Source: an uncultured Clostridia bacterium (lineage in GTDB: Bacteria > Bacillota > Clostridia > TANB77 > CAG-508). From it: DNA of 64,000 nt. Positions 772 through 61,361 of this stretch are shown piece after piece. Position 1 is the stretch's first letter, and each line of letters opens with the position of its first letter. The position numbers were made by a program, and so were the translations under genes. The stretch covers positions 1 through 64,000 of the forward strand of contig CAJFHE010000002.1 of NCBI GenBank assembly GCA_904378095.1, written 5' to 3'. The notes beneath the pieces are model-generated. The model was not told where the DNA came from and did not search any database. It worked only from the letters and a program-made list of their open reading frames with translations.

Positions 772-2823
<2,052 letters not shown>

Positions 2824-15912: not shown

Positions 15913-16066
15913 TTTACCTCGCCCCTTAACTTTCTCTTATTATTTCCTAAAATTCTACATATTATTATTTTTTATTAAATTTAATATATCAGCAAAATAT
16001 TAAATTTGTTTTTAGTTCTTATTAAAGTTTTCTTAATTTAAAGTAGAGCGAGGTGCCTGGTTTAAA

Positions 16067-16501
16067 CTATTTCATTAACATTTGTCTAATCATCCAGACC
16101 TTTTTTTCAAAGTCTAACAAGTACTCATCCATTAAAGCAGATGTTGCATATTTCTTTTCATTGTCAGCATCTTCTTTTATTTTTGTCACATTTTCTGATA
16201 ATATGCAATAATCCTTTAAAATTTTTTCAAATATATCTCTTGAAAACTTTTTCTCATTTTGAGCTTCTTTTATTTGTGTAATTTCTAGATAATCATGCAT
16301 AGAGCCAAGAGGCTCACCATCTATTATTAATATGTGCTCTGCTACTTCATCTATCTGCTTATTTACATCATTATATAGCTCTTCCAATTTTACATGTACA
16401 TTAAAAAAATCTTCTCCTTTAATGTTCCAATGGTAATTTTGTAGCTTCCTATAAAAAACATTTAAATTAGCTAAAAATAAATTTAGGTCTTCTGTAATCA
16501 T
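16067..16501 (-). CDS. dps: Dps-family ferritin-like protein
   Basis: 144 residues of four-helix bundle. Dps dodecamers oxidise and store iron and protect DNA from peroxide. Ferroxidase-site ligands are visible: H24 in NYHWNIKG, H36 in FNVHVKLEELYNDV, and D51/E55 in NKQIDEVAEHI, followed by the LGSMHDYLE loop. I take the ATG at 16501; a GTG three codons earlier is too close to the AAGGAAAG site. There is no long basic N-terminal tail, so direct DNA binding is not obvious. The stop is followed by a CCAGGYACCTCGC motif related to the intergenic palindromes elsewhere in the window. Confidence 0.9.
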   Translation of the reverse strand: MITEDLNLFLANLNVFYRKLQNYHWNIKGEDFFNVHVKLEELYNDVNKQIDEVAEHILIIDGEPLGSMHDYLEITQIKEAQNEKKFSRDIFEKILKDYCILSENVTKIKEDADNEKKYATSALMDEYLLDFEKKVWMIRQMLMK

Positions 16502-18625: not shown

Positions 18626-18701
18626 CCTGTAAAGGAATGGAGCCATTCCTTTGCTCCAAAAATGCGGAGACAGGTTTAAATCTGTCTCCGCATTTTTGGA
18701 G
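18626..18701. terminator. large bidirectional hairpin with alternative stems
   Basis: A perfect 20-bp stem (arms 18654-18673 and 18682-18701, loop GTTTAAAT) separates the convergent rluA-type gene and ftsH. Before it AAAGGAAT/ATTCCTTT (18631-18652) forms a second stem. GGAGC/GCTCC (18639-18657) and CCTGT/ACAGG (18626-18674) offer competing pairings. The inner GACAGGTTTAAATCTGTC belongs to the window's repeat family. Confidence 0.85.
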
Positions 18702-25802: not shown

Positions 25803-25954
25803 GATAAACCTCCTTTGATATTAATATATTTATCATGCTGTACAAAAAATTACTCATTTATTATATAATATATTGAAAAAAAAGAAAAGCTTTTTCATAA
25901 ATTTTTAAGAAATGGTCATTAAATGGTTGCAATTTTGCCATATAAACCCGAAAC

Positions 25955-25982
25955 GAGGGAGCAGATTTAAATCTGCTCCCTC
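25955..25982. repeat. 28-base perfect palindrome after pnp
   Basis: GAGGGAGCAGATTT is followed directly by its reverse complement. It lies 12 bases beyond the pnp stop. The centre CAGATTTAAATCTG matches the core of the 18654-18701 hairpin. It may end pnp transcription, although no T-run follows on the minus strand. The remaining 190-base gap to the PBP gene is plain AT-rich sequence. Confidence 0.85.
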
Positions 25983-25993
25983 ATATTTTAATA

Positions 25994-28120: not shown

Positions 28121-28200
28121 AATTTTTTGTTCCTTTCCTTTTTATATTTAATTAATAGCACTTTAATTAGTTGTAACCTCTATACTATGCTGTCGCTATA

Positions 28201-28250
28201 GGGACAGGCCTAAAAACGACAAAGTTGTCGTTTTGGGGACAGGCTTAACC
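28201..28250. repeat. hairpin flanked by direct repeats
   Basis: GGGACAGGC occurs at 28201-28209 and again at 28236-28244, both followed by YTAA. Between them AAAACGACAA (28213-28222) pairs perfectly with TTGTCGTTTT (28225-28234). It lies between rpsO and pnp. Confidence 0.85.
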
Positions 28251-28342: not shown

Positions 28343-28377
28343 AGTGGACGTCAGGCTTAAAAGCCAAAACGCCCACT
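28343..28377 (-). terminator. hairpin after rpsO
   Basis: AGTGG(a)CG...AGGCTT pairs with AAGCC...CG(c)CCACT, giving a two-part imperfect stem 12 bases after the rpsO stop. The AGGCTTAAAAGCC centre again resembles the dispersed GACAGGYTTAA repeats. Confidence 0.6.
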
Positions 28378-29943: not shown

Positions 29944-29976
29944 AGGGCTGTCCCTTTGGACAAATACGCCTGTTCC
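29944..29976. repeat. GGGACAG-type intergenic hairpin
   Basis: TGTCCctttGGACA (29950-29962) with flanking GGGC and a following CGCCTGTTCCC. It resembles the GGGACAGGC units at 28201-28250 and lies just ahead of the ylbF ribosome site. Confidence 0.55.
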
Positions 29977-42850: not shown

Positions 42851-42881
42851 CTTGTTTTTGGGGACGGAGGAAAAAAACAAG
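42851..42881. repeat. 31-base intergenic repeat, copy 2
   Basis: Exact reverse complement of 2789-2819. Here it lies between recN and lysS and overlaps the T-run of the recN terminator. Confidence 0.9.
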
Positions 42882-46977: not shown

Positions 46978-47111
46978 ACTTACCTCCTGTAATTTTTTCG
47001 CTTAATATTATATCACATGTTTTTGGATTATTCTATACAAAAGAAATGATTTTTGAAATAAAATTATTGTGCAGTTATAATTCACAGTTAACTTTCGTCA
47101 TATTACCTAAA

Positions 47112-47145
47112 ACGCTGGTGACAGCATTTAATCTATCACCAGCGT
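47112..47145 (-). terminator. terminator after the Rpn-type gene
   Basis: ACGCTGGTGA (47112-47121) pairs perfectly with TCACCAGCGT (47136-47145). It lies 34 bases beyond the stop at 47179. Only AT-rich spacer lies between it and the 781-residue gene. Confidence 0.75.
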
Positions 47146-47178
47146 CTCTATATTATAAAGTAAAATACAACATCTCAT

Positions 47179-48057
47179 TTATAATGTTTCTATATCTTCT
47201 TTAGTTAAACCTGTTATTTTTACTATGGTTTCGGTCGCCATTCCTTCATCTTTCATCTTTTTTGCTATCTCTTGTTGTTTTTTCTTTTCGCCTCTTTCTT
47301 CTGCTTGTGCCATTGTCATGTTATAATCTATTATTTCTAATTTTCTCTTATATGCCTCTATTCTTGCATTCTCGTCTGCACTCATTTCATCCAAGTCTTC
47401 TACTACTTTCTCTATTGTTTTATTCTCTTCACTTGCCATCTTTATTTTCTCATCCTCCCCCGTTAGCAGCCATAGCCATTGCTCCAACTTACTATTCATT
47501 CCTGGCTTACTTTTTATAAATTTTTTTAATTCTATATAATGAAATTCTACTATGTCTGTTAAATCCTCTTGCTCTTCTTTATAACCCATATTTACATATT
47601 TTTTTGGATTGTTTTTGTCAAACTTCAAATGTACTATACTATGATATGTATTCCTTTTCAACAAATTTTCTGCTAATATATTTATTGATATGAATTTCTT
47701 TAGCCCTTGGTATGACTCGCTTACTCGTGTATCCTCTGCTATTAACCTTGCTCCATAACCTATATTTCTATTTACAAAAGTATATATATTAGACACCTGC
47801 ATTTCTATATCTAAAATTGTATTATCATCAATTGTTGCTCGTATATCCAATACTCCCAGTTTTTCACCTGCATAATTCTTTGTTATCTCTGAATTTTTTA
47901 CCTCTATTTTCTTGATTTTAATGTCTAATATTGCCTCAACAAATTCCTTTAACTCTTGGTTATTTTCTGGCTTTGCAAATATCCTCTTAAATACATAGTC
48001 ATTTGTTAATTCTAGTCTCTTTTGTTCACTTTGTGTTTTTGTCTCATTTTTTTGCAT
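47179..48057 (-). CDS. Rpn-family PD-(D/E)XK nuclease/putative transposase
   Basis: 292 residues. Recombination-promoting nuclease family, often labelled PD-(D/E)XK family transposase. The opening LTNDYVFKRIFAKPENNQELKEFVEAIL is diagnostic. The nuclease core has D71 in GVLDIRATIDDN and E85/Q87 in LDIEMQV. Next comes NRNIGYGARLIAEDTRVSESYQGLKK, and a C-terminal helical region ends in AKKMKDEGMATETIVKITGLTKEDIETL, a typical terminal helix-turn motif. No inverted repeats flank it as a mobile element would need. The ATG at 48057 follows GGGAGG. It is intact and may move by homologous recombination. Confidence 0.9.
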   Translation of the reverse strand: MQKNETKTQSEQKRLELTNDYVFKRIFAKPENNQELKEFVEAILDIKIKKIEVKNSEITKNYAGEKLGVLDIRATIDDNTILDIEMQVSNIYTFVNRNIGYGARLIAEDTRVSESYQGLKKFISINILAENLLKRNTYHSIVHLKFDKNNPKKYVNMGYKEEQEDLTDIVEFHYIELKKFIKSKPGMNSKLEQWLWLLTGEDEKIKMASEENKTIEKVVEDLDEMSADENARIEAYKRKLEIIDYNMTMAQAEERGEKKKQQEIAKKMKDEGMATETIVKITGLTKEDIETL

Positions 48058-48494
48058 ATTGCTACCTCCCATATTCTATCAAATTTCATGTTGGTATTCA
48101 ATACTTTTTCTTAATTTTAGTCTTATTATTTTTCTTATTGGTAAATGTTAATTAGAAATAATCTTTGCAGATGATTAGAGATAAAAAGATTTATTTTTAA
48201 TGATTTAAATATTTTAAGAAGAAATAATAATATGGATAAAGATTAAAGATATATTGAATAAAATTAGTTGATGTTAAATTTTTTAGAATCAAATATTACT
48301 GAATTAATTTAATATCACTAATGTAAAACATATTTTATATATAGCATGATTTTATGTATAATGCAAGAAAAATCGTTCGACAAAAATCGACACCTTAGAA
48401 AAAAAGAATTTCCTATTTGTAATATTTTTGTAATATATAAAAACCGCCTAAGAAATTAATCTTAGGTGGTTATAAATTGGTTGATTATAGCAAG
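48058..48494. other. 437-base gap with a possible Spo0A-box pair and promoter
   Basis: AT-rich and without an ORF. On the minus strand TGTCGATTTTTGTCGAA (about 48374-48392) holds two Spo0A-box-like units (TGTCGA and TTTTTGTCGAA). They lie just upstream of TTGCAT-N17-TATATA (about 48335-48365), pointing to the Rpn-type gene through a 280-base leader. The relA-like terminator lies at 48443-48470. Confidence 0.3.
48443..48470 (-). terminator. terminator after the RelA-like gene
   Basis: ACCGCCTAAG (48443-48452) pairs with CTTAGGTGGT (48461-48470), with one G-U and a T-run on the minus strand. Confidence 0.88.
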
Positions 48495-51356: not shown

Positions 51357-51381
51357 TCTATCAACATCCTTTCTTTTGGCT

Positions 51382-51432
51382 GGAACAAGGGGACGGTTCC
51401 ATCGTTCCAGAAATGGAACATGGGGACACATC
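51382..51432. repeat. GGGGAC-type repeat between T-box terminator and thrS start
   Basis: On the minus strand GTGTCCCC, then GTTCCATTTCTGGAAC, then GATGGAACCGTCCCCTTGTTCC. It contains three related GTTCCA/TGGAAC units that can form small hairpins. It resembles the GGGGACGGAGG and GGGACAGG repeats and is not part of the T-box itself. Confidence 0.6.
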
Positions 51433-60107: not shown

Positions 60108-60180
60108 GTTGTTGAAAGATTTTTTTGAGCAAATCTTGCCATTTTTAATATTTCTGTAACATTTTTGTAATATTTTTATA

Positions 60181-60216
60181 AAACATGGGGACAGTCTTAT
60201 AACTGTCTCCATGTTT
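60181..60216. terminator. spoIIP terminator of the GGGGACAG type
   Basis: AAACATGGGGACAGT (60181-60195) pairs with ACTGTCTCCATGTTT with one G-U. The stem begins at the spoIIP stop and is followed by T-rich sequence on the minus strand. Confidence 0.85.
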
Positions 60217-61361
60217 TACTTCAATACCTCACTTAATACCTTAGAAAGATATTTCATACTATTTAAGCATTGCTCCATTGTATTTCCAGTTGCTCCCACT
60301 TCAATAATGCTTGCACCTTTTGCAAGCTGTTGATTATATCTGCTATCTCGTAAAACAATTGGCTTAAATAACCCTGGATATAGCTCATTTGCTTTTTCTT
60401 GTATTTTTATTGCTAATTTTAAATTTTCATTCCAATTATCATGCTCACTTCCGCCTCCATTGCTTCCTATAACAAACATTAATTGTGCCGCTTCGTCATC
60501 GCCAATTTTTACTGTAGGTGCATATGAGCTATCACCAATTGCATCTCTATGCATATCAAACAATATATCAGTGTCTTTGTTCTCTTCTAAAAGTTTGGCC
60601 ACTCCTTTTAAAGACCTATCATATGATTGACTATATGATGAATCATAAATTGTTGTATCATGAATTACGTTGTATCCATAATGTTTCAAATATTTTTCAA
60701 GTTCTGCTCCCACTCGTACCATGTTGCAATTTAAATCTTTTGTTCTAAAATTTCCTGAAGCTTTATATTTATAATTGTCTGTTTGGGTATAGCTTTCGCA
60801 GGTATGGGTGTGATAAATTAATATATTTTTTGTGTTTACATCTACTTCTGGTACAAGCATTTCTTTGGTTAATTTTATGTTATCTGTTTCGTTTCGTATT
60901 TTTACCCCATTGTATTCACTTGTGTACTTCTCTGGTACACTGTTTTCTAGCACTTCTGTTTTTAATCCAGTTTCTGCTTCCTGTATTTCATCATCTATAT
61001 TATTGTTTCCTATAGCATTTTCCGCACTTGTTTCATTTTCCACTACATTTTCTGCCGCATTTTCTACGTTCTCCGTATTTGCTCCGTTTTTTTCTATGCT
61101 GTCCATCATGCCCAATTCCACACCTAGTGCCATTTTTAGTGGCTCTATATTGTTTTTTGCATTTTGCTCCTTTTTATTGACACTTCTTATACTTGGAATA
61201 ACAGTATCCAAACATGACAAAAACGAATTTTTATCTATATTGAGCTTTGTTTTGAAACCCGAGAAATATTTAGTAAGACCTACAATAATAGCTATTAATA
61301 AAGTTATTTTTATCAAATATTTAATTATATCTTTAAGCTCAATTACAGCTAAATTTATCAT
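60216..61361 (-). CDS. spoIIP: stage II sporulation protein P
   Basis: 381 residues. Membrane-anchored amidase/endopeptidase of the DMP engulfment machine, which thins septal peptidoglycan during sporulation. One N-terminal helix (about 10-32) is followed by a low-complexity Asn/Glu/Ala linker (NAAENVVENETSAENAIGNNN). The catalytic domain has LIYHTHTCESYTQTD, ILFDMHRDAIGD, MFVIGSNGGGSEHDNWNENLKLA and ASIIEVGATGNTMEQC; the His and Glu bind zinc. It implies that the organism or its ancestors form spores. AAAGGAAAT precedes the ATG. Partners spoIID and spoIIM are not in the window. Confidence 0.93.
   Translation of the reverse strand: MINLAVIELKDIIKYLIKITLLIAIIVGLTKYFSGFKTKLNIDKNSFLSCLDTVIPSIRSVNKKEQNAKNNIEPLKMALGVELGMMDSIEKNGANTENVENAAENVVENETSAENAIGNNNIDDEIQEAETGLKTEVLENSVPEKYTSEYNGVKIRNETDNIKLTKEMLVPEVDVNTKNILIYHTHTCESYTQTDNYKYKASGNFRTKDLNCNMVRVGAELEKYLKHYGYNVIHDTTIYDSSYSQSYDRSLKGVAKLLEENKDTDILFDMHRDAIGDSSYAPTVKIGDDEAAQLMFVIGSNGGGSEHDNWNENLKLAIKIQEKANELYPGLFKPIVLRDSRYNQQLAKGASIIEVGATGNTMEQCLNSMKYLSKVLSEVLK

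Follow-up and report, generated by a model that had tools for sequence, protein, structure and literature searches.

The palindromes that punctuate the gene ends of the 64,000-nt stretch of clostridial DNA analysed here (the window) are real. They fall into at least two families of short repeats, of a type associated with a REP transposase that is present as a single copy, and are located just after genes. We consider it likely that these repeats are non-autonomous short elements of RAYTs, of the TIRYT or RAYT group 1 kind. The genome from which the window derives is a 1.28 Mb draft that is 92% complete and has a low G+C content (30%).

The first-pass annotation had described a dispersed family of palindromes centered on GACAGGYTTAA. 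Enrichment of this core was confirmed: allowing ≤1 mismatch, the window contains 8 matches where 2.2 would be expected, and the whole genome contains 16 exact matches compared with 1 for the reversed control. In contrast, the proposal that every listed site represents one family was not borne out, being ruled out by the alignment of family B copies and by the covariance-model matches; at least two families and further tag-bearing hairpins are present. A search of the window against Rfam matched no family.

Repeat families and other tag-bearing hairpins

Aligned copies of the first family, family A, yield the consensus GTGAAAC-NNN-GG[T/G]GACAG[A/G]TTTAAA[T/C]CTGTC[A/C]CC-NNN-GTTTCAC, that is, GTGAAAC-NNN-GGTGACAGATTTAAATCTGTCACC-NNN-GTTTCAC. 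The 18-nt palindromic core, GACAGRTTTAAAYCTGTC, is found with ≤3 mismatches at 64 places in the whole genome compared with 2 for the control, and scanning the genome with a family A covariance model (R1) produced 147 strand-matches, corresponding to about 75 places. Pairing in family A is supported by covariation, with 61 cells in which both sides changed against 29 in shuffled alignments (0 of 500), whereas the spacer of approximately 3 nt pairs only about half of the time. The earlier impression that the core is kept while the outer arms vary holds for family A, with conservation of about 90% in the inner columns, although this contrast is partly a matter of ascertainment because most copies were gathered by core similarity. 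The GGGGWSAS motif is present, in the form GGGGACAG, in part of the family A copies, including many of those in the related species G002 and some in this genome, where GGTGACAG predominates.

Calibrated R1 matches occur at four places in the window, one of which (47106–47151) was absent from the earlier list. They are given here together with a hairpin that adjoins the first of them:

18630–18654, unstranded: hairpin AAAGGAATGG-AGCC-CCATTCCTTT, recognized by sequence and fold; adjoins the family A copy, lacks the tag and is not a member
18655–18700, unstranded: family A palindrome CTCCAAAAATGCGGAGACAGGTTTAAATCTGTCTCCGCATTTTTGGAG (R1 E 5e-11), in the gap where the rluD-type gene (stop 18625) and ftsH (stop 18712) converge
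25946–25991, unstranded: family A palindrome CGAAACGAGGGAGCAGATTTAAATCTGCTCCCTC (R1 E 1e-7), after pnp (stop 25994) and upstream of a PBP gene
47106–47151, unstranded: family A palindrome ACGCTGGTGACAGCATTTAATCTATCACCAGCGT (R1 E 5e-5), just past the stop of the minus-strand gene 47179–48072
60176–60221, unstranded: family A palindrome AAAACATGGGGACAGTCTTATAACTGTCTCCATGTTTTAC (R1 E 3e-10), at the 3′ end of spoIIP (the SpoIIP gene was identified by Pfam)

In the copy at 18655–18700, the outer GTGAAAC arms are swapped for A/T-rich arms; the site is terminator-like, and its fold together with the neighboring hairpin has an energy of −49 kcal/mol. The minus strand around the third copy (47090–47185) folds with −31.6 kcal/mol. 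The motif after dps (about 16048–16065), which had been listed as a further member, scores no better than chance with the covariance model (16041–16068, E about 4).

Across the 30 species of the genus that were compared, family A is unevenly distributed. At ≤1 mismatch, there are 28 matches in this genome, 30 in G002, and 1–6 in each of the congeners G028, G021, and G012; none were found in the other 25 members. Some copies share their place between species, clearly so for L084 and L022, and likely for L150 and L015 and for L149 and the window. The PBP gene downstream of the window copy at 25946–25991 is preceded by a family A copy in G002 as well, and a copy related to that at 18655–18700 lies beside rluD in G028. 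In the latter species, an ORF resembling inserted DNA separates ftsH from the family A copy in the interval between ftsH and the rluD-type gene (L195).

Family B, TGTCGTTATAGGGACAGGCCTAAAAACGACAA-GTTGTCGTTTTTGGGACAGACCT, is a distinct element. The genome contains 43 near-identical copies of it, and 35 of these are exact over 20 nt. The only copy in the window accounts for the site at 28201–28250 that had been assigned to the same family as the others:

28190–28248, plus strand: family B element of two half-units, TGTCGCTATAGGGACAGGCCTAAAAACGACAAAGTTGTCGTTTTGGGGACAGGCTTAA, between rpsO and pnp

The GGGGWSAS motif appears as GGGGACAG in the second half-unit of this copy (28235–28242) and in many other copies, while the first half-units mostly carry GGGACAG after A. 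Apart from a weak run of T, no strict target site was found for family B. The family B pattern has 42 matches in this genome and 0 in G002; B-like sequences are present in G004, G024, G015, G001, and other genomes, so that the family is not strictly private.

Two of the remaining listed sites matched neither family, and three further places in the window carry tagged hairpins of other kinds:

28345–28377, minus strand: hairpin downstream of rpsO, containing GTCAGGCTTAA; neither A nor B (minus-strand fold −20.8 kcal/mol)
29944–29976, unstranded: possible degenerate tag-bearing hairpin, GGGCTGTCCC...GCCTGTTCCC, carrying CTGTCCC
2789–2819, minus strand: family C hairpin CTTGTTTTTGGGGACGGAGGAAAAAAACAAG with the tag in the loop (seed matches)
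42851–42881, plus strand: second window copy of the family C hairpin (seed matches)
51381–51432, plus strand: tag-bearing hairpins TGGAACAAGGGGACGGTTCCATCGTTCCA...TGGAACATGGGGACACATC, like the repeats that flank a second kind of RAYT in G028 (L132)

The site at 28345 is a separate, unrelated hairpin with no R1 match. The site at 29944–29976, which R1 fails to match even when E values as high as 10 are allowed, can at most be counted as a degenerate relative. The family C seed matches at nine places in the stretches around earlier matches, to which that search was confined; the hairpin, AAATCTTGTTTTTGGGGACGGAGGAAAAAAACAAGATTTT, also occurs in L004, L023, L034, L049, L050, and L051, in several cases near a family A copy. 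For the GGAACAAGGGGACGGTTCCATCGTTCC hairpins at 51381–51432, the matching second-kind RAYT of G028 (L132) was not seen in this genome. Yet another tag-bearing repeat, with GGGACACTCC, lies in L006 (2880–2990) and has 15 matches in the analysed stretches of this genome.

The RAYT gene and its flanking repeats

The sole Y1_Tnp gene of the genome is located on contig C17 and encodes a 264-aa protein with H-x-H and Y-I-H-K-N-P motifs. In an alignment with its relatives (A2, 31 proteins), the HuH and Y---NP signatures correspond to H62-x-H64 and Y121-I-H-x-N-P126. The protein matches the NCBIfam model REP_Tyr_transpos better than the IS200 model, with a score of 61 bits that falls under the curated cut-off of 80. 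For a C-terminal helix-turn-helix, the protein itself gives only weak matches (HTH_29, E 0.14; Xre-like, 0.07), and HTH_23 is present in 7 of the 31 related RAYT proteins. Family B copies in inverted orientation flank the gene (L001/L082). With 43 copies dispersed through the genome, relatives arranged alike, and a shared GG[G/T]GACAG tag in family A, the suggestion that the repeats are REP-like is upheld.

The same arrangement recurs in the genus. Among 39 RAYT genes of the relatives, 33 are preceded by GGGAC and followed by GTCCC, the opposite orientation being rare. In 16 species, the RAYT gene occupies one fixed locus before radA, with the GGGAC tag kept and the stems differing; this inverted-tag layout is also found for most RAYT genes at other loci. 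For 22 species, we compared the RAYT flanks with the sequences bordering ftsH and pnp on either side. Best scores averaged 25.2 within species and 14.3 between species, and the within-species mean was not attained in any of 20,000 permutations (p 5e-5). This species-matched signal is carried by about nine species; the other 13 have no clear match at the two sampled loci, which simply hold no clear copy of the local repeat. The repeat that flanks the RAYT gene of G002 has 53 matches in that genome and, at two mismatches, 14 in G015; the remaining 28 genomes have none. In G018, tandem CTTTGTCACTTTTGGGGACAGGCTCTTTTCCGCCAA-like units that match this species' own RAYT flank follow ftsH (L211).

We propose that each element is a short hairpin consisting of a constant tag (GGGGACRG, here GGGACAGG or GG[G/T]GACAG) and a family-specific stem. 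In single-stranded DNA, tag and stem would be recognized by the RAYT, which would then copy the element or move it. Family B would then be the current family of the only RAYT in the genome. Family A, with its two head-to-head tags, may be an older double-tag palindrome, the RAYT of which was probably lost or missed by the assembly. Its place in the same system is suggested by the GG[G/T]GACAG tag that it shares with family B; counting against this reading, the RAYT gene of this genome is flanked by B and not by A. Among the better R1 matches at RAYT loci are A-like palindromes (R1 E about 1e-3) that border RAYT genes on either side in G019, G020, and G006, but none of the RAYT loci examined is flanked by a typical family A copy; the view of family A as an older layer of such elements is therefore an inference. 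Because copies share their place in some species pairs, family A is not obviously moving now. No clean empty site was seen for A or B copies.

The palindrome beyond the genus and alternative readings

An exact scan for GGKGACAGRTTTAAAYCTGTCMCC in 84,980 genomes (257 Gb) located the 24-bp inner core of family A in at least 114 genomic stretches, where about 0.015 would be expected by chance (257 Gb × 16 / 4^24, an estimate assuming uniform bases). The stretches come from Gammaproteobacteria, Deltaproteobacteria, Nitrospirae, Coprothermobacterota, and other groups, a taxonomic spread that is provisional on complete genomes since most of the records are draft metagenome bins. Among the matches listed, nearly all cores read GGGGACAGATTTAAATCTGTCCCC or GGGGACAGGTTTAAACCTGTCCCC with differing flanks, and 79 of the 102 placeable copies are intergenic, compared with about 10% of random positions. 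Two viral contigs contain the palindrome twice each, 4,083 bp apart (L363, 8047–8070 and 12130–12153; L364, 789–812 and 4872–4895), and each of the two copies in L363 falls in the gap that separates a stop codon from the following ribosome-binding site. A match in a Lokiarchaeota bin (L315) has flanks like those of the deltaproteobacterial copies and possibly represents a mis-binned contig. No association of the distant cores with RAYTs was evident: the 114 listed stretches yielded only two RAYT-like ORFs, 1.5 and 3.6 kb away. Literature searches with the exact core returned chance primer matches only, among them the one in the Thiomargarita paper.

These observations point to a short core common to distant bacteria. 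We tentatively raise the possibility, which we regard as somewhat doubtful, that the 24-bp palindrome GGGGACAG[A/G]TTTAAA[T/C]CTGTCCCC represents a single unit, mobile or functional, with the same letters across many phyla and lineage-specific outer arms. Short repeats at gene ends would in that case have widespread drivers that have been overlooked, either group 1 RAYTs or some other conserved protein reading the double site.

Identity of the core across many phyla could also be explained if the palindromes were selected binding sites of a host protein with a nucleoid, regulatory, or chromosome-segregation function, mobility being secondary or absent. The core is indeed far better conserved than the spacers, which pair poorly, and some copies are kept in place between species. 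However, 25 of the 30 members of the genus have no core at ≤1 mismatch, the RAYT tag lies inside the core, A-like palindromes flank RAYT genes, and a location past stop codons is unusual for regulator sites; we therefore consider this explanation unlikely.

The position of the copies bears on a further alternative, that they are ordinary intrinsic terminators sharing their stem sequence by chance. As the first-pass annotation had noted, the sites lie mostly right after stop codons: family A copies between tandem genes (32 cases) lie at a median of 14 nt from the stop of the upstream gene and 113 nt from the start of the downstream one, and 12 further copies are convergent and 1 is divergent. 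The hairpins are stable, and the main listed site, 18655–18700, is a strong terminator-like hairpin. Yet arms with ≥5 T in 8 nt make up 64% in family A against 63% among shuffled arms, and with U-tracts at this background level, termination is ruled out as the general role of the family. Nor would chance place one 18-nt core at so many sites when the control has two, or make it abundant in only two of the 30 species. In the relatives, sequences past the orthologous ftsH and pnp genes are mostly unrelated to the core. Taken together, this makes chance sharing among terminators quite improbable. Of the earlier idea of domesticated 3′ ends, the position after genes stands while a class-wide terminator function does not; individual copies may terminate transcription, as the very stable hairpins and T-runs of examples such as 18655–18700 suggest. 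Dispersed copies with near-perfect inverted repeats could also be read as MITEs of a conventional DDE transposase; this is very improbable, given that it is the RAYT genes that bear tag-carrying inverted repeats of the same sort.

In the RAYT-based explanation, most surviving elements would be those located after a stop codon and ahead of the next ribosome-binding site, with a few family A copies probably acting as terminators. Among the 43 family B copies, 11 were assigned to a class that closes the upstream ORF with a TAG of its own; two of these seem to belong rather with the 19 copies that abut a Shine-Dalgarno sequence. After this adjustment, about nine copies supply the stop codon, and about twenty abut a Shine-Dalgarno sequence.

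Relationship to known repeat systems

The classical REP and REPIN sequences of E. coli and Pseudomonas are short extragenic hairpins that form inverted pairs, are associated with a low-copy RAYT, and are often located downstream of genes. The repeats described here share these features: they are short, extragenic hairpins, occur in inverted pairs, are linked to a low-copy RAYT, and follow genes. Unlike classical REPs, the aligned A or B copies share no 5′ GTAG/GGAG foot, the constant tag is in the loop or the inner stem, and the copy number is in the tens.

A closer counterpart is provided by TIRYTs, or TIRtrons, which the part of the original account considered here describes as Y1 transposase genes with flanking inverted repeats, some sharing GGGGWSAS, and with moderately abundant dispersed families, often dimers, in some species (Di Nocera et al. 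2013, PMC3733652). Family B fits such TIR repeats, as it flanks the RAYT gene, carries GGGGWSAS, including GGGGACAG in the window copy, and is dispersed. The present case differs from that part of the account in that, within a single genus, one species after another has a family to itself, with the RAYT at a fixed locus. The same part names no clostridial family, and the double-tag 24-bp palindrome of family A was not found in the literature searched.

Most TIRYTs fall in TnpA_Y1 subclass 2.1, equivalent to RAYT group 1, which is characterized by HuH and Y---NP motifs, low copy number, a C-terminal helix-turn-helix in some members, and, in TIRYTs, GGGG[AT][CG]A[CG] repeats; neither automatic nor manual searches of this subclass yielded REP-like sequences (Quentin et al. 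2018, PMC6006769). The RAYTs studied here resemble subclass 2.1 in their HuH/Y---NP motifs, low copy number, and HTH_23 in some relatives, a likeness of features rather than a placement in a tree. In contrast to that account, tag-bearing hairpin repeats flank the large majority of the genes.

Group 1 is a large RAYT group, with no REP-like sequences reported in the 2018 classification, and here are about 30 related species, at least 16 with a RAYT at a fixed locus, in which the repeats change by species. Because a fixed-locus RAYT is combined with species-changing repeats in one genus, RAYT–repeat co-evolution becomes directly testable. RAYT repeats would also account for many of the palindromes that follow genes in these species and are otherwise hard to explain; the present repeats are best filed as a variant of the TIRYT / RAYT group 1 repeats.
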